Assembly: GCA_029565685.1 (NCBI GenBank)
Contig: JAKQNR010000052.1
Location: forward strand, 62,001 to 126,000
DNA: 64,000 nt
From: a bacterium
Lineage (GTDB): Bacteria; Zhuqueibacterota; Zhuqueibacteria; Residuimicrobiales; Residuimicrobiaceae
Direction of reading: 5' to 3'
Shown here: positions 16,283-22,169 of the stretch, piece by piece
Layout: each line of letters opens with the position of its first letter
Position numbering within the stretch: the stretch's first letter is position 1
Notes under the pieces: generated by a model
What the model was told of the DNA's origin: nothing
What the model saw: only the letters and a program-made list of their open reading frames with translations
Database searches by the model: none
Position numbers and translations under genes: made by a program

Positions 16283-17092
16283 ATGGAAAGAAACGAAACC
16301 AGAAAAGCGATCGCCAAGGACGGCTTGGTCTACGGACCTGTGCATTCGCGACGATTAGGTCTGTCCTTGGGGTTGAACATTTGTCCAACAGCGAGGAAAC
16401 AGTGTTCCTTTGACTGCATCTACTGCGAATGCGGCAGCCGGCCGCCGCTGCTGACCGTAACGGCGGCCGAAGCTTGGCCCGCTCCGCTGCAGGTTGAGGA
16501 GGCGCTGGCTCAGGCTTTGCGGCGGGTGCAGGCGGTGGATTGCATCACCTTTGCCGGCAACGGCGAGCCGACGCTGCACCCTGCCTTTGCCGAGATCGTA
16601 ACCAGAGTGCGGAGATTGCGCGACGCACAGGCGCCGGGGCTCAAGCTGGTCCTGCTTTCCAATGCATCCGGCCTGAGACAGGAGGGCGTACGCGCTGCGT
16701 TGCCTTTGATCGATCTTCCCATCCTCAAGCTCGACGCCGGAACAGAGGAGACCTTTCAACAAATCAACCGTCCGGCGGCCCCGCTGTCGCTCGCTGACAT
16801 CCTGGACTGCTTGAAAACCCTTTCTCATTATTTTCTGCAGTCCTTGTTCGTCGCCGGCCGCTATAGTAATATCGATGAACAAAGCGTGTCAGCCTGGATA
16901 GACCGCGTGGGCGAGCTTGCTCCCCAGGGGGTGCAGATTTATTCGTTGGATCGAACCGCGCCGGTCCGCGGTCTGGCTCCGGTTGCGCTGGAAACGCTGC
17001 AGTCCATCGCCGACCGCTTGCGTGCGCGGATTGACATTCCGGTCTCGGTATTTGCTTCAAGCGTTCAGAAAATGAAGATCGGAAACAAATGA
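16283..17092 (+). CDS. Radical SAM protein (COG0731-like Fe-S oxidoreductase)
   Basis: 269 aa. The N-terminal GPVHSRRLGLSLGLNICP leads into a cysteine cluster, KQCSFDCIYCECG, which supplies the CxxxCxxC-type 4Fe-4S site. FAGNGEPTLHP is the usual glycine-rich SAM-binding segment, and LPILKLDAGTEETFQQINRP matches the Fe-S oxidoreductase group related to wybutosine-type enzymes. The reaction is unknown for this group. Its stop overlaps the next start by four bases (ATGA), so it is translationally coupled to the PdxA-like gene. Confidence 0.85.
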   Translation: MERNETRKAIAKDGLVYGPVHSRRLGLSLGLNICPTARKQCSFDCIYCECGSRPPLLTVTAAEAWPAPLQVEEALAQALRRVQAVDCITFAGNGEPTLHPAFAEIVTRVRRLRDAQAPGLKLVLLSNASGLRQEGVRAALPLIDLPILKLDAGTEETFQQINRPAAPLSLADILDCLKTLSHYFLQSLFVAGRYSNIDEQSVSAWIDRVGELAPQGVQIYSLDRTAPVRGLAPVALETLQSIADRLRARIDIPVSVFASSVQKMKIGNK

Positions 17093-18111
17093 ATCAGTCG
17101 GAAAAGCCCATCATCGCCGTCACGCTGGGTGATCCTGCCGGAGTAGGACCCGAGATCACGCTCAAGGCGCTGAAGAATGAACAGGTGCAGCAGGCGGTGC
17201 GGCCGGTGGTGTTCGGCGACGCCCAGGTGTTGCGCCAAGCCATGGATATCACCGGATTGCGGTTCAATCTGCAACCCCTGCAGCGCATCGATCAAGCGGT
17301 GTTCGAACCCAGCACCATCCTGGTGGTGGAAAGCGATATGATCAACGCGCCGGTGCAGATGGGTGCGGCGCAGGATCTGTGCGGACGCGCTGTTTTCTCT
17401 TATCTGGCCAATGCCGTCGACTGGACCATGAGCGGGATCACCCAGGCCATGGTCAGTGCGCCGGTCAGCAGAGAGTCGCTTCGTGCGGGCCACATTCCTT
17501 ACTGGGATCAGACCGAGATTTTGGCCAAGTTAACTCAGACCGAAACGCCCATCTCCCTGCTCATGACCGGCCCGCTGCGCATTCTGCTCTATGCTCGGCC
17601 TATGCCGTTCCGCCAGGTGGCGGAGCATCTGTCCGTCGACCGCCTAGTGGCGGCGCTTCAGCGCGGCGATCAGGGCATGCGTCAGCTTGGCGTTGAACGC
17701 CCGCGCCTGGCTGTGGCGGCGCTCAATCCGTGCGGCGGAGAGAAGGGCCTTCTCGGCGATGAAGAGGCCGCCCTACTCGCTCCGGCTGTTGCGCAGGCTT
17801 GCCGTCTGGGGCTGAATGTCAAAGGTCCGGCGCCCGCTGATCTGGTTTTTTGTCATGCCCTCGCGGGTATGTATGATGCGGTGCTTGCGCTGTACTACGA
17901 TCAGGGACGCATCGCAGCCTTTTGTTATGATTGTCAGCGGACGATCGAACTGACCCTGGGGCTGCCTTTTCTGCACATCGCCGCAGATTATGGAACCGTT
18001 TTGGAAGATGCTGGAAAGAACATGGCCGATCCCGTCGGCATGATCGAATGCCTGCTGGCATGCAGCCGCTACGGCCAAACGGCGCGCGAATTTTTTAAAA
18101 AGAACACTTGA
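17089..18111 (+). CDS. PdxA-like dehydrogenase lacking the metal-binding histidines
   Basis: By overall sequence this is the PdxA (4-hydroxythreonine-4-phosphate dehydrogenase) family: GDPAGVGPEI near the N-terminus, SAPVSRESL, RPRLAVAALNPCGGE, and GKNMADP near the C-terminus, over 340 aa. In E. coli PdxA the divalent metal is held by His166, His211 and His266. Here the matching contexts read DQTE instead of GHTE (Gln141), ARPMP instead of a THxP-type motif (about Pro171), and YYDQG instead of YHDQG (Tyr270); DHGT is also DYGT (Tyr301). A normal metal-dependent oxidative decarboxylation is therefore unlikely. No other B6 gene is nearby. The frame is intact, so this is a diverged paralogue, not a pseudogene. 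Confidence 0.8.
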   Translation: MNQSEKPIIAVTLGDPAGVGPEITLKALKNEQVQQAVRPVVFGDAQVLRQAMDITGLRFNLQPLQRIDQAVFEPSTILVVESDMINAPVQMGAAQDLCGRAVFSYLANAVDWTMSGITQAMVSAPVSRESLRAGHIPYWDQTEILAKLTQTETPISLLMTGPLRILLYARPMPFRQVAEHLSVDRLVAALQRGDQGMRQLGVERPRLAVAALNPCGGEKGLLGDEEAALLAPAVAQACRLGLNVKGPAPADLVFCHALAGMYDAVLALYYDQGRIAAFCYDCQRTIELTLGLPFLHIAADYGTVLEDAGKNMADPVGMIECLLACSRYGQTAREFFKKNT

Positions 18112-18136
18112 CAGCAAAACGAAAAAGTAGTATATT
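18108..18136 (+). promoter_or_regulatory. Consensus sigma70-type promoter of the trpB2 leader
   Basis: TTGACA (18108-18113, perfect -35), 17-base spacer, TATATT (18131-18136). It overlaps the last codons of the PdxA-like gene. Transcription should start near 18143, about 18 bases before the leader peptide ATG. Confidence 0.85.
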
Positions 18137-18160
18137 CGACTATATAAAACAGGAATGTTC

Positions 18161-18259
18161 ATGTTATCAAATTCTTGCACATCGTCCGTGAACGCGCAAA
18201 GAGGTCTTTGGTGGAGCTGGTGGTGGCGTACGTCCGGACGTAGTGGGAGAAAAGTATAG
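18161..18259 (+). CDS. trpL: Trp-rich leader peptide of the trpB2 attenuator
   Basis: ATG 18161 has AGGA six bases upstream and opens a 32-codon frame ending at TAG 18257-18259. Codons 17-22 (18209-18226) read TGG TGG AGC TGG TGG TGG, that is WWSWWW: five Trp in six. Trp is otherwise absent from the peptide. The position just behind a strong promoter and just before a terminator and a tryptophan synthase gene is that of a trpL-type control peptide. Its role would be to stall the ribosome when charged tRNA-Trp is scarce. The symbol is by functional analogy, not homology. Confidence 0.88.
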   Translation: MLSNSCTSSVNAQRGLWWSWWWRTSGRSGRKV

Positions 18260-18307
18260 CATGATCAGCTATTGATAAATACTCCACGCCTTTTCAGGCC
18301 CGCTACG
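18229..18307 (+). promoter_or_regulatory. Attenuator pairing segments (1:2 hairpin and 2:3 antiterminator)
   Basis: Segment 1 (18229-18233) can pair with 18238-18242 around a CCGG loop, directly after the last Trp codon. Segment 2 (18239-18247, CGTAGTGGG) can instead pair with segment 3 (18299-18307, CCCGCTACG) over nine base pairs with one G-U. That pairing consumes the 5' arm of the terminator. Segment 2 nearly copies the terminator's 3' arm (GTAGCGGG). A ribosome stalled on the Trp codons would cover segment 1 and free segment 2; a ribosome at the leader stop would cover segment 2 and let the terminator form. The pairing is seen in the sequence; the mechanism is inferred from known trp attenuators. 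Confidence 0.8.
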
Positions 18308-18331
18308 TTCACTCAGTAGCGGGCTTTTTTT
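18298..18331 (+). terminator. Intrinsic terminator of the trpB2 attenuator
   Basis: GCCCGCTAC (18298-18306), 9-base loop, GTAGCGGGC (18316-18324), then seven T. The 9-bp stem is perfect. It lies 39 bases after the leader stop and about 100 bases before trpB2. Confidence 0.9.
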
Positions 18332-18429
18332 ATGCGCTCGGCCTACTCTTGTCGGCGCCAAGGTGATTTGGAAAAATGGATGAAAGCAGCCGTACAACAG
18401 ATAACCCTTACAAGCAAAGGAGTAGAAAA

Positions 18430-19806
18430 ATGGAAACGACCAAGTTTGTGCTGACTGAGAATGAGATGCCGCGTCAATGGTATAATCTCAACGCTGACTT
18501 TCCCAAGCCCATGCTGCCGCCCCTGGGGCCGGACGGTAAACCGCTTGCGCCGGAACAGCTGGCGCCGGTGTTTCCCATGAACCTCATCGAGCAGGAGGTC
18601 AGCACCGATCGCTGGATCGACATTCCGGAAGAGGTGTTGAGGATGTATGCCATATATCGTCCTTCGCCGCTGCACCGCGCCCGCGCGCTGGAGCAGGCGC
18701 TGGGCACGCCGGCGCGGATTTATTACAAAAATGAAAGCGTCAATCCAGCCGGAAGCCATAAACCCAATACCGCCATTCCCCAGGCCTATTTCAACAAGGT
18801 GTTCGGTATTAAAAAAATCACCACCGAGACCGGCGCCGGTCAGTGGGGCTGCGCTCTGGCGCTGGCGTGCAGTCTGCTTAAAATGGAATGTAAAGTCTAC
18901 ATGGTGCGCATCAGCTTTGAACAAAAGCCCTTCCGCCGCCTGATGATGGAAACCTGGGGCGCCAAATGCATTCCCAGCCCCAGTCCGGAAACCAACTCTG
19001 GCAGAAAATTCCTCAGTGATTTTCCCGACGCTCCGGGCAGCTTGGGCATGGCTATCAGTGAAGCGGTCGAAGAGGCGGTCAGCGACAGCACCGGCAAGAC
19101 CCGCTATTCCTTGGGCAGCGTGCTCAATCACGTCATGCTGCATCAGACCATTATCGGGCTCGAGGCCAAGAAGCAACTGGCCTTGGCCGGAGAGAAGAAG
19201 GTGGATCGAATCATCGGCTGCGTGGGCGGCGGCAGCAATTTCGCCGGCATTTCGTTCCCCTTTGCCCTGGACCTGATCAACGGCGCGGATATGGAGATCA
19301 TTCCAGTGGAGCCCAGTTCCTGCCCCACCATGACCCGTTCGCCCTTTTCCTACGATTTCGGCGATACCGCTGAGATGACGCCGCTGTTGCCCATGCACTC
19401 TTTGGGCCACATGTTCATGCCGCCGCCGATCCACGCCGGCGGCCTGCGCTATCACGGCGTTTCGCCCATGATCAGTCATGGCATCAACCTGGGTCTGTTC
19501 AAGCCCCGTTCTTACGATCAGCTGGACTGCTATGAAGCAGCGGTTCAATTTGCCCGTACAGAAGGCATCATCCCTGCACCGGAGACCAGCCATGCCATCG
19601 CCGGCGCCATCGATGAAGCGCGCAAGGCCAAGGAAGAGGGCAAAGAGCGCGTGATCCTCTTCAACTTTAGCGGACACGGCCTCATGGACCTGCGCGGCTA
19701 TGACCTCTATTTCCGTGGGGAGCTGGTGAACTATCCTCTGCCGGAAGAAGAGTTCAAGAAATCGATCGCAGTGCTCAACAAACTGCCCAAACCGGCAAAA
19801 TACTAG
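18430..19806 (+). CDS. trpB: Tryptophan synthase beta chain, TrpB2 type
   Basis: Makes L-Trp from indole and serine with PLP. 458 aa, longer at the N-terminus than TrpB1 (LAPVFPMNLIEQEVSTDRWI), as is usual for the TrpB2 branch. The PLP lysine is Lys111 in AGSHKPNT, the phosphate loop is GGGSN (266-270), and TETGAGQWG and SGHGLMDL are also present. AAGGAG upstream of ATG 18430 decides the start; an ATG at 18376 lacks an RBS. No trpA or other trp gene is here. TrpB2 enzymes are often thought to salvage free indole. The upstream attenuator shows that the cell ties this gene to its tryptophan supply. Confidence 0.95.
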   Translation: METTKFVLTENEMPRQWYNLNADFPKPMLPPLGPDGKPLAPEQLAPVFPMNLIEQEVSTDRWIDIPEEVLRMYAIYRPSPLHRARALEQALGTPARIYYKNESVNPAGSHKPNTAIPQAYFNKVFGIKKITTETGAGQWGCALALACSLLKMECKVYMVRISFEQKPFRRLMMETWGAKCIPSPSPETNSGRKFLSDFPDAPGSLGMAISEAVEEAVSDSTGKTRYSLGSVLNHVMLHQTIIGLEAKKQLALAGEKKVDRIIGCVGGGSNFAGISFPFALDLINGADMEIIPVEPSSCPTMTRSPFSYDFGDTAEMTPLLPMHSLGHMFMPPPIHAGGLRYHGVSPMISHGINLGLFKPRSYDQLDCYEAAVQFARTEGIIPAPETSHAIAGAIDEARKAKEEGKERVILFNFSGHGLMDLRGYDLYFRGELVNYPLPEEEFKKSIAVLNKLPKPAKY

Positions 19807-19813
19807 CCGCCAC

Positions 19814-19847
19814 GGCCGGACTCTTTCAGCGAGTCCGGCCTTTTTTT
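19814..19847 (+). terminator. Intrinsic terminator after trpB2
   Basis: GGCCGGACTC and GAGTCCGGCC form a perfect 10-bp stem with a 7-base loop, followed by seven T. It begins 8 bases after the trpB2 stop. Confidence 0.9.
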
Positions 19848-20208
19848 GGTGGCGCGCTCGGCAGGCGCCATTCACTCGGAATTAGATCTCCCGTGAGCCC
19901 TCGCAGGGACGTGAATAGCGGCAGCATGCTTTTTGCCGTGTTCCCGATGATTCGAATATGATCATTGCGAAGGCAATAATTTTGTTGGCAAATTGTGTTA
20001 AAAAGTGTTACTTTTGCCGACACAGTTATCAGCAACCTGGATCATTCTTCTCTGTCCTGAAAATCATTACCACCCATATAACGTTTTAACATCCGCTTCT
20101 TGAGCAAGCGTCTGCGCCGGCACAGCGGCGCCTTGACCGGCGCGAGCGAGTGTTCTTTCATTTTCAATGGGCTTTACAGCACTGGTAAAAATGTGACAGG
20201 AGGGACTT
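19848..20208. other. Intergenic interval without a recognised gene
   Basis: About 360 bases. I see no coding family and no RNA gene. The AT-rich stretch around 19950-20010 could hold a promoter for the following operon, but no box is convincing. The Shine-Dalgarno AGGAGG of the next gene lies at its end. Confidence 0.5.
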
Positions 20209-20745
20209 GTGCCGCAACCACCCAGCAAGTTGATGCCCGCTGTATACGGCGGCTTGGCGATCGGCATCATCAGCGGCGTGCCGTTTTTAAGTTGGATCAA
20301 TTGCGCCTGCTGCGCCGGCGTGATGGGCGGCGGATTTCTGGCAGTTTATCTCTTTCGCCGCGAGCTTGATTCCCGCTACCATATGGACTTTTCGGATGGA
20401 GCTCAGCTCGGATTGCTGGCAGGCCTTTTCGGCGCAGTCATCGCCACGGCCCTGAGCCAGGTGTTCGCTACGGTCAGCTACGAGATGGTGCACAACATCA
20501 TCACCACCTACCTTCAGGACCCGGAGATGGAGGAGATGTTTGATCGCTTTCGGCCGGATATGTTGACCGGCGGTCTGCTCTTTTTCGGCTTTTTGATCAA
20601 TCTGGTTTTCTATACTCTTTTTGGCCTGCTCGGCGGCCTGGTCGGTGTCAGCCTGGTGGGCAAAGCCAGGCTGCCCTATGAACCGCCGCCGGACCAGCCG
20701 ATGCCTGAGGACACGAAGCGGGATTCCGGCGCTCCTCCGCTATGA
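20209..20745 (+). CDS. Hypothetical integral membrane protein
   Basis: 178 aa with four or so hydrophobic segments: LMPAVYGGLAIGIISGVPF, CAGVMGGGFLAVYLF, GAQLGLLAGLFGAVIATAL and a long one in LLFFGFLINLVFYTLFGLL. A CACC pair after the first segment (NCACCAG) could bind a metal or form a disulfide. A polar, proline-rich tail follows. GTG 20209 has AGGAGG about 6 bases upstream. The stop overlaps the next ATG by four bases. Similar small proteins occur in many environmental genomes; the function is unknown. Confidence 0.65.
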   Translation: MPQPPSKLMPAVYGGLAIGIISGVPFLSWINCACCAGVMGGGFLAVYLFRRELDSRYHMDFSDGAQLGLLAGLFGAVIATALSQVFATVSYEMVHNIITTYLQDPEMEEMFDRFRPDMLTGGLLFFGFLINLVFYTLFGLLGGLVGVSLVGKARLPYEPPPDQPMPEDTKRDSGAPPL

Positions 20746-22169
20746 TGGACAAGCTTGCCGCTTATCTGCGGCAAAAGGGACGGCCGGCTTCGGCTGAAGA
20801 GCTGGTCCGCCAGGTGCTCAGAATCTCTGTGCCGTCACCTGCCCTGGCCGAGAAACTGCTGGCATCGATTGCCGGCCAGGAGCACAACCTGGTGCGTGAC
20901 GGCCGGGGTTTGTGGCGGTTGCGCGAAGAGGCTCAACCGGCAGAAGCGGAACTGCCGGTGGAGACGTTTTTTTTTCTGCGGCCGCATTCCGGGCAGGAGG
21001 GTCATTGGTCTTGCTGGTCCGGGATCCGCTACGGCCGTCTGTGGAACGGCGTCTTTCAACTTGCGGACCAAGCACGGCAGGGGACTCTCGCCGAGTCTCT
21101 TTCCGCGTTCGCCGCAGAACGGAAAACGCATCCTTTGGTTCTATCCGGATTTGAACAGCACGCTGCGCAACTCCGCTCCGCTTCGCGCTCGTTGCTCGGC
21201 ATCGATCTCGCTGATCCCGTGTTGACCCTGCGACGTTTGGCTGAACTCGTGTTCCCTGAAAATGCACCGACTGCCATGACGGAGTTGACGCGTTTGCTGC
21301 CCGGCGCTGGTTATGCTGAGGGAGAGCCCGAAGTGCAACTGCAGGCAGAGGCCGGTCTCCTGCTGATGTTGCTCGAACGGCTGCACGACAAGGGTGTTTT
21401 ACATCTCTCCGATCTGTTGCGGATTTACCCTCCGGTTCGTCATCAGCCCGATTTTACCGCTTTTGCCTTTGATGATGCCTTTATCGCCTCGCTGCCGCAT
21501 GCGCCGGGCGTGTATGTGATGCGGGATCGCCAGGAACGGATTCTTTATGTCGGCAAAGCCGCCGATCTGTTCGAACGGGTGGGCTCTTACTTTCGCGCCA
21601 GAGGCGCGGTGGATGAAAAACTGCAGACTCTGTGGAATCAAATTCACCAATTGCAGATCATCCGTACCGGTTCTGAACTGGAGGCCTTGCTGTTGGAGAA
21701 CCGGCTGATCAAGGAGCTGCATCCGCTCATCAACACACAGGTGAAAGTGTTCGGCCGCACCCATCGCCGTAAAAGCCGGTTTCCGCGCATTGTTCTGCTT
21801 CCCTCTGCCTGTGACGATTCGCAGGCACTCTATTTTCTGCATCCGGAAAAGGCGCTTTATTGTTGTCTGCTGGCGGCAGAGGAGGAAAGCCCTTCGGCAG
21901 CGTGGACCATTTTTGACCGCCGGCTGTCGCTGAATGCGCAAGAGGAACTGGAGGCAGAGATCGACGGTTATTTTTTTCACCCCGGTCCACTCCTGCCGGC
22001 GGCGGATGAACGGGCCGAGATAGCGGTGAGCTGGTTGGCGGCTCATGAAGAACAGGCGGAGAGCATCGACATGCGCGGCGTCCTCTGCGCGGCTGAGGCG
22101 TTGCGAACCATTCAAGCTTTTTTGCGCGATGGCCGCTCGAATATGAAACGGATTTTTTACCATTCCTAG
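20742..22169 (+). CDS. Winged-helix / degenerate DnaQ-like / GIY-YIG domain protein
   Basis: 475 aa. Residues 1-65 look like a winged helix (YLRQKGRPASAEELVRQVL, NLVRDGRGLWRL). Residues about 75-225 follow the order of a DnaQ-type exonuclease (VLTLRRLAELVFP, then LTRLLP), but the catalytic DEDD acids are not where they should be. Residues about 245-335 are a UvrC/Cho-type GIY-YIG nuclease: PGVYVMRD, ILYVGKAADLFERV and the Glu-bearing LEALLLENRLIKEL. The C-terminal 140 residues are unassigned. DnaQ-GIY-YIG fusions are known, but there the exonuclease is active. A DNA repair or structure-specific nuclease role is inferred. Confidence 0.75.
   Translation: MMDKLAAYLRQKGRPASAEELVRQVLRISVPSPALAEKLLASIAGQEHNLVRDGRGLWRLREEAQPAEAELPVETFFFLRPHSGQEGHWSCWSGIRYGRLWNGVFQLADQARQGTLAESLSAFAAERKTHPLVLSGFEQHAAQLRSASRSLLGIDLADPVLTLRRLAELVFPENAPTAMTELTRLLPGAGYAEGEPEVQLQAEAGLLLMLLERLHDKGVLHLSDLLRIYPPVRHQPDFTAFAFDDAFIASLPHAPGVYVMRDRQERILYVGKAADLFERVGSYFRARGAVDEKLQTLWNQIHQLQIIRTGSELEALLLENRLIKELHPLINTQVKVFGRTHRRKSRFPRIVLLPSACDDSQALYFLHPEKALYCCLLAAEEESPSAAWTIFDRRLSLNAQEELEAEIDGYFFHPGPLLPAADERAEIAVSWLAAHEEQAESIDMRGVLCAAEALRTIQAFLRDGRSNMKRIFYHS

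Follow-up and report, generated by a model that had tools for sequence, protein, structure and literature searches.

trpB2, coding for a TrpB-like pyridoxal phosphate (PLP) enzyme, is very probably controlled by a ribosome-mediated tryptophan transcription attenuator which would act as a starvation-triggered switch for indole salvage. The gene is located within a 64,000-nt stretch of contig JAKQNR010000052.1 (the window, below), part of a 5.28-Mb draft genome (91.8% complete) of what we infer to be a KSB1-type bacterium of the Fibrobacterota-Chlorobiota-Bacteroidota (FCB) group. An earlier note on this DNA had suspected an FCB-group host and had named a stand-alone trpB2 as the target. The latter agrees with the family matches of the product and with an intrinsic terminator of its own behind the gene, which makes the unit a one-gene unit. 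The elements discussed in this work are listed below; coordinates are positions in the window, and all of the elements are on the + strand.

18108-18136, + strand: sigma-70-type promoter, TTGACA-17-TATATT, matching the consensus at 11 of 12 positions
18151-18154, + strand: Shine-Dalgarno-like AGGA, 6 nt upstream of ATG 18161 (from sequence)
18161-18259, + strand: predicted leader open reading frame (ORF) of 32 codons with the core WWSWWW, from ATG 18161 to the stop codon TAG 18257-18259
18209-18226, + strand: five Trp codons, TGGTGGAGCTGGTGGTGG, the putative sensing element, starting at 18209, 18212, 18218, 18221 and 18224
18229-18242, + strand: palindrome TACGTCCGGACGTA (from sequence), by which 1:2 can pair locally in the window but which is not conserved
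18236-18247, + strand: segment 2, antiterminator 5' strand, within the leader ORF; 12 pairs with segment 3, covariation
18299-18310, + strand: segment 3, antiterminator 3' strand; 18299-18306 doubles as terminator 5' strand
18298-18306, + strand: terminator 5' arm GCCCGCTAC, forming a 9-bp core with 18316-18324
18316-18324, + strand: terminator 3' arm GTAGCGGGC, which is segment 4; four of the nine pairs changed on both sides among relatives
18325-18331, + strand: T7 tract of the intrinsic terminator (from sequence)
18430-19806, + strand: trpB2, TrpB-like PLP enzyme, 458 codons, above the NF009057 and TIGR01415 cut-offs
19814-19840, + strand: intrinsic terminator 3' of trpB2, 10-bp stem and T7 (from sequence)
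17089-18111, + strand: gene of the PdxA-like 4-hydroxythreonine-4-phosphate dehydrogenase family (NF002992, E 1.6e-96, under its curated cut-off), the upstream neighbour, outside the unit

Direct reading of the sequence located everything that the earlier note had named (promoter, 32-codon ORF with its ribosome binding site and Trp-rich core, alternative pairings, 9-bp terminator with T7) at 18108-18331, upstream of trpB2. The stop codon of the pdxA-like gene overlaps the -35 hexamer of the promoter, which is the best among four promoter-like sites in 17600-20200. An identical TTGACA-17-TATATT precedes the leader in 11 of the 20 leader loci described below; at the other nine, the best site picked by script matches 8-10 of 12 positions, the picks for L018, L019, L021 and L050 being poor because of an over-long ORF or the search span. 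The leader peptide reads MLSNSCTSSVNAQRGLWWSWWWRTSGRSGRKV, and a second in-frame ATG of its ORF lies at 18155. The most likely start of trpB2 is ATG 18430 behind AAAGGAG, an earlier in-frame ATG being present at 18376. Segments 2 and 3 of the window form a duplex (18236-18247 / 18299-18310) of 12 pairs, two of them G-U, where the earlier note had counted nine. When the post-Trp leader was shuffled 500 times with dinucleotides preserved, no shuffle matched this duplex (p ≤ 0.002), and the RNA 18138-18332 has a folding z of -3.3.

TrpB2 was found in 20 of the 22 genomes of the window's order, and a Trp-rich leader ORF precedes trpB2 at 18 of the 19 order loci that have the 5' end present (L022, L032, L048 and L049, with the 5' end missing, were left out). 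It is found at all 15 loci with a complete trpB2, more than 70% identity and upstream sequence present, where the ORF starts 194-349 nt before trpB2, and in three 5' fragments (L050, L051, L052). The sole leaderless locus, L024, codes for the second TrpB2 of genome G010, which is 65% identical and placed elsewhere in the tree. G010 thus has a paralogue without a Trp leader, while its other trpB2 carries one. Both loci read in f13, another family of the same class (L021 and L030), also have the leader and complete the set of 20. No leader was seen at ten other class loci read (L023, L025-L029, L031, L033-L035); the class count covers the loci fetched and read, further class loci having matched outside it.

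The leaders are 23-42 codons long as called. A Trp run is present in 20/20 of them, and so is a terminator with a T-run between the leader ORF and trpB2. Defined for the search as a short ORF, at most 400 nt from trpB2, with three or more Trp in a stretch of seven codons, the leader is detected at 20/20 loci of the leader-bearing clades, against 0/20 on the reverse strand and 0.00 expected from mononucleotide shuffles. Conservation and these two controls rule out chance or artefact as its source. What is conserved in the region are the Trp codons, segments 2, 3 and 4, and the T-run. In the alignment of the 20 peptides, only two Trp columns are invariant and one Gly is nearly so; beyond Trp and the Ser-Gly (SG) encoded by segment 2, little is kept.

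In the window genome, a leader-peptide profile matched the window site alone, both at E ≤ 10 (E 7.8e-10) among 150 of 256 first-look candidates scored and at E ≤ 0.01 with 101/101 candidates scored. Among 63 genomes of the class, 19 had a match at E ≤ 0.01 (17 of the order, two of f13), and in each of them the best match is the leader of its trpB2. One weak second match was found in G002, and G021 was missed in this run, though found in an earlier profile run. Weaker matches in the relatives L188-L195, L197 and L198 showed no clear leader on inspection (L196, L199 and matches without a locus were left out). No other Trp-leader genes were found in the window genome with the pattern TGGTGGNNNTGGTGG, which has nine sites there vs three for the reversed-pattern control; among the eight sites read, one is the window site and the other seven all fall inside ORFs 150 or more codons long.

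That segments 2, 3 and 4 covary is, like the parts and their conservation, evident from the sequences. Covariation was counted on alignment A2, whose 20 rows include near-copies (L006/L007, L012/L013, L008/L052), so the p values err on the small side. The terminators read CCCGCT...AGCGGG in the order, with few exceptions, and CCCACT...AGTGGG in f13 and L018. Both-side changes in the terminator stem add up to 14 cells, and 0/500 shuffles reached as many; the number of its pair types is not above shuffles (498/500). In the antiterminator, both-side change affects three of the nine pairs (nine cells, 1/500 shuffles as high). These antiterminator counts are lowered by the alignment, since MAFFT, by our reading, misplaces segment 2 in six rows that were retained (L011, L016, L018, L021, L030 and L050).

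Pairing energies, for which A2 was not used, point to the same conclusion. With its own segment 3, the post-Trp leader forms a duplex of -19.5 kcal/mol on average, vs -15.5 kcal/mol with segment 3 of other leaders, and 0/20000 permutations were as low (p = 5e-5). In 19 of the 20 leaders, the 2:3 duplex is better than dinucleotide shuffles at p < 0.05. Moreover, in the window, L016, L050 and L052 the 2:3 pairing extends beyond the terminator stem to bases of the loop, so that the terminator repeat does not fully account for it. One position has a U-G pair with segment 2 in 15/20 rows but, with segment 4, G-C in 17 and A-U in three, which weakens 2:3 relative to 3:4. The Trp-run conservation, the terminators and the 2:3 pairing taken together support the trpL-type logic proposed in the earlier note, and its expectation of a Trp run and compensatory changes in relatives has been borne out.

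Segment 2 starts inside the leader ORF in 20/20 leaders, as the earlier note had stated for the window, by a search not confined to the ORF, in which the picker took Trp-run sequence in L009 and L021 and found only six pairs in L014. The shuffle tests of 2:3 and 1:2 covered only the part of the leader ORF that follows the Trp run, and so are no proof of this location by themselves. With the Trp run excluded, the distance from the final Trp codon of that run to the start of segment 2 is 0-14 nt, which places this start roughly at the leading edge of a ribosome halted on that codon.

When charged tRNA-Trp is scarce, the ribosome would stall on the Trp run with its front edge near the start of segment 2, which could then pair with the emerging segment 3; no terminator would form and trpB2 would be transcribed. 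When tryptophan is plentiful, the ribosome would translate its way across segment 2 and reach the stop codon; with segment 2 covered or unwound at the decisive moment, the 3:4 terminator would form, stopping transcription near 18331. Folding of the RNA in front of a ribosome held at the first Trp, with segment 4 yet to be transcribed, predicts 7.9-25.6 antiterminator pairs.

trpB2 codes for a protein scoring well above the cut-offs of both family models (NF009057, 697 bits vs 366; TIGR01415, 624.6 bits vs 518.85), with 6hul, 4qys and 6hte as the closest solved chains. Lys110, Glu132 and a GGGSN loop are invariant in eight aligned TrpB2; they presumably represent the lysine that holds PLP, the catalytic Glu and the phosphate loop. 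Searches with PF00290 (trpA), PF00218 (trpC) and TIGR00564 (trpE) had no match at E ≤ 0.001 in the six genomes of the window's family, f1 (G000-G005), while all three had matches in 14/14 control genomes (the TIGR00564 cut-off being passed in only five). Among the trp genes searched for (trpD, trpF and trpG being outside the search), trpB2 is thus the only one found in f1, and the regulated step is probably indole salvage rather than the end of a full pathway. The four other proteins of the PALP family in the window genome include a CysK (cysteine synthase), a D-cysteine desulfhydrase/CuyA-like protein and two threonine synthase-like enzymes (L001 and L003); none of them is TrpB1.

Throughout the order, trpA over the cut-off and trpC are present in 11 of 22 genomes, identical for both genes, trpE over the cut-off is present in 9/22, and 11/22 have neither trpA nor trpC. 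The leader does not follow this division: of the order genomes lacking trpA and trpC, all those with the trpB2 5' end present (8/8) have it, as do 10/10 of those having trpA and trpB2. Four trp clusters of relatives were read, and each is a trpEGDCFBA operon by ORF order with trpB over the TIGR00263 cut-off (4/4). In these prototrophs, trpB2 is therefore additional to a full trp operon with its own trpB. Most likely, TrpB2 serves indole-to-tryptophan salvage under starvation control: it would make tryptophan from scavenged indole and serine. An E. coli trpA mutant was able to grow by cross-feeding, which the authors credit to indole, when given a Bacteroides TrpB2 that shares 59% identity with the Thermotoga enzyme (PMC11535334), and TrpB2 of T. 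kodakarensis has been linked with indole salvage (Hiyama 2014, as cited in PMC11085991).

Several observations weigh against the attenuator as outlined. Two of the five antiterminator measures are at shuffle level (both-side pairs, 281/500; pair types, 272/500). The 2:3 pairing of L021 is weak (p 0.074), and a leader's own segment 3 is the best partner of 20 in only three leaders, ranking 14th to 16th in L009, L010 and L021. The 0.1-6.3 antiterminator pairs expected with the ribosome at the stop codon are low by construction, as segment 2 is removed together with all RNA behind the ribosome front. With segment 4 present, at equilibrium, the terminator has a probability above 0.5 in 18/20 leaders when the ribosome stalls at the first Trp and in 19/20 when it stalls at the last one. 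Equilibrium switching is thus not supported by the stalled-state folds, and the decision must be kinetic. In six of the 20 leaders, a ribosome parked at the stop codon would have left all of segment 2 behind its footprint, so parking is insufficient there, and segment 2 must be hidden by a ribosome in motion or by refolding upstream. Finally, the genomes are drafts (that of the window is 91.8% complete), and the absence of trpA, trpC and trpE is therefore no proof, although five of the six f1 genomes, at least 90% complete each, agree on it.

The 1:2 hairpin deserves separate mention among these points. The earlier note had segment 2 pairing either upstream or with the terminator 5' arm. In the window such a 1:2 pairing does exist (p = 0.04 vs shuffles; 11/14 segment-2 bases are paired upstream in the ribosome-free fold), but it is not conserved, being better than shuffles in only 4/20 leaders. 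The E. coli 1:2 hairpin pauses polymerase, synchronises it with the ribosome and is described as required for a sharp response (PMC1183508). Such a protector or pause hairpin belongs to the trp/his arrangement of E. coli and does not define attenuation itself.

The alternative that survives best, itself improbable, accepts the attenuation but not the indole-salvage role: TrpB2 would make another product, or would receive its indole from a TrpA-like source that escaped detection. NCBIfam calls the family no more than 'TrpB-like' and the genomes are drafts, which leaves room for it. Yet the Trp codons of the leader tie the gene to tryptophan supply, Lys110, Glu132 and the GGGSN loop are invariant, and the Bacteroides enzyme (PMC11535334) did use cross-fed indole.

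The Trp-rich ORF could also be a small-protein gene acting in trans, as Sinorhizobium peTrpL is reported to do, with the terminator as its 3' end and trpB2 read by leak or from another promoter. The leaders, at 23-42 codons, exceed E. coli trpL with its 15 codons (PMC1183508), and trans action of a leader peptide is on record (PMC7298713). We consider this explanation very unlikely: the peptide is hardly conserved beyond its Trp codons and SG, whereas the RNA segments covary; the 2:3 pairing would have no role; and leader, terminator and trpB2 stay joined at all 20 leader loci.

Even less probable is an inducer-type, tnaC-like arrest peptide, by which high tryptophan would stall the ribosome and switch trpB2 on, e.g., for degradative or other use. 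TrpB2 could in principle use other substrates, and tna-type leaders use Trp too. However, runs of Trp codons that tolerate varied neighbours are a sign of codon starvation rather than of a specific arrest peptide, and the runs observed among the 20 leaders do tolerate different neighbours. In addition, the trp biosynthetic operon of relatives bears a leader of the same kind. A T-box, a riboswitch or a TRAP-like protein-bound attenuator that happens to contain a short ORF is the least credible possibility: the orphan 'trpB motif' of Firmicutes and Fusobacteria is a strong riboswitch candidate (PMC11109978) and all Rfam matches are sub-threshold, but at E ≤ 5 the region 17900-18700 had three matches, to Trp_leader (19.4 bits, gathering 41), anti-hemB and MEG8_3, none of them a T-box or riboswitch family, and it is the Trp codons, the three segments and the T-run that are conserved.

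The ribosome-mediated attenuator preferred here would be of the trpL type, a known kind. E. coli trpL and the Rfam family RF00513 (Trp_leader) share with it a Trp-codon run in a short ORF, the alternative 2:3 and 3:4 hairpins, an intrinsic terminator and a target in tryptophan synthesis. Unlike E. coli trpL, it has segment 2 inside the ORF and no conserved 1:2 pause or protector hairpin, its target is a lone trpB2 instead of trpE...A, and its host is a KSB1-type FCB bacterium. Membership in RF00513 was considered and rejected: the score is below threshold (E 0.34), so the leader is not filed as a member. Actinobacteria trp attenuators, including that of C. diphtheriae trpB2A (PMC1262725), likewise have two or three Trp codons in a row and a complementary triple that is conserved, and one of their targets is named trpB2A; there, unlike here, trpB2 sits with trpA, in a different phylum, and the triple is gGCC-rGCy-GGCC as compared to mostly AGTGGG-CCCGCT-AGCGGG in our set. 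Chlamydia trpBA, with a predicted trpL (PMC3937554, PMC6504234), is another case of a tryptophan auxotroph which keeps the last step for salvage behind a predicted Trp leader; it differs in that trpB and trpA are under TrpR and the attenuator is disputed, while trpB2 stands alone here and covariation of the RNA parts extends over 20 loci. The product itself resembles the stand-alone tryptophan synthase beta TrpB2/TIGR01415 of Thermotoga, Thermococcus and Bacteroides, as the window protein meets the NF009057 and TIGR01415 cut-offs.

Among the best-ranked literature matches (the top 10 to 20 per search), openly accessible papers only, leader control of such a trpB2 was not described. According to a 2010 survey, leader-peptide systems were known only from Proteobacteria and Actinobacteria, with one added in Firmicutes (PMC2965389). 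New, then, are the taxon, the target (a lone gene outliving the trp operon) and the layout with segment 2 inside the ORF.

Leaders of the same kind precede trpE in relatives. A WWW or WWWW leader is present at 8/8 trpE loci with upstream sequence (L068-L075), up to about 400 nt from the trpE match; L067, cut at the trpE upstream side, was left out of this count. Two intrinsic terminators in tandem follow, the first being CGCCGTGGATGC...GCATTCACGGCG in most. Segment 2 coincides in part with the end of the ORF; its pairing with the 5' arm of the first terminator reaches p ≤ 0.05 vs mononucleotide shuffles in six of the eight (exceptions: L073, p 0.27, and L075, p 0.07). The trpB2 and trpE leaders of relatives can be expected to constitute a small regulon.

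Trp-rich ORFs were also searched for upstream of trpB2 in other groups, in 80 named TrpB2 relatives with 60-80% identity (L090 and L117 among them are class loci already counted). A strict ATG leader (at least three Trp in seven codons, ≤400 nt) was found in 9/80 vs 0.2 expected and none on the reverse strand. Two of these nine are the class loci already counted and one is L118, a Desulfobacteraceae-labelled locus with the candidate leader AWWFQAAASRYWWRTARW 211 nt upstream of trpB2, a terminator and an antiterminator of p 0.068. Allowing any start codon and ≤500 nt with the same Trp density raises the number to 12/80, again with none on the reverse strand. L139, L159 and L164 look like chance matches. 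In Bacteroidota, L091, L092, L095 and L138 and six WxW loci (L100, L101, L103, L113, L114, L145) have a leader followed by a terminator before trpB2, in sequence unlike the leaders of the window's order but alike in layout. The chance rate of the WxW class is not negligible: at least two Trp with ATG occur in 20/80 vs 4.3 expected, and in two on the reverse strand. L092 has a 12-pair antiterminator within the ORF, of a sequence unrelated to the window's, while most other Bacteroidota loci have a weaker 2:3 pairing.

L160 and L158, a Deltaproteobacteria-labelled and an unclassified record, have Trp leaders (NWAWWW and NWCWW) followed by two terminator-like hairpins; in L160 the antiterminator is just past the leader stop. 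No Planctomycetota row of the TrpB2 tree has a leader label. On this tree (106 rows, quick method, 38/103 inner branches weak), the 'no leader' label requires 8 changes vs 25.5 in shuffles.

Two other genes near the unit were read in the window. The 16283-17092 gene codes for a radical S-adenosylmethionine (SAM) protein, whose best NCBIfam matches, viperin-like (E 1e-7) and other radical SAM families, are under cut-off. The product of 20742-22169 has a UvrC-like stretch (residues 248-334), with matches to DEDD exonuclease and UvrC families under cut-off.

Overall, leader-peptide attenuation with covariation is now seen in a deep uncultured lineage of the FCB group, and the same layout occurs before trpB2 in some Bacteroidota. 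The system allows a direct question to be asked: how attenuation would operate without a conserved pause hairpin. As the link of the lone trpB2 to Trp starvation is kept after loss of the trp pathway, it constitutes good genomic evidence for indole salvage by TrpB2. We speculate, on a proposal which may equally well hold or fail, that over much of the FCB group the stand-alone trpB2 is a Trp-starvation salvage gene with its own translational sensor, that this sensor has outlived the trp operon, and that it needs no conserved 1:2 hairpin, because segment 2 would lie in-frame at the front edge of the stalled ribosome.

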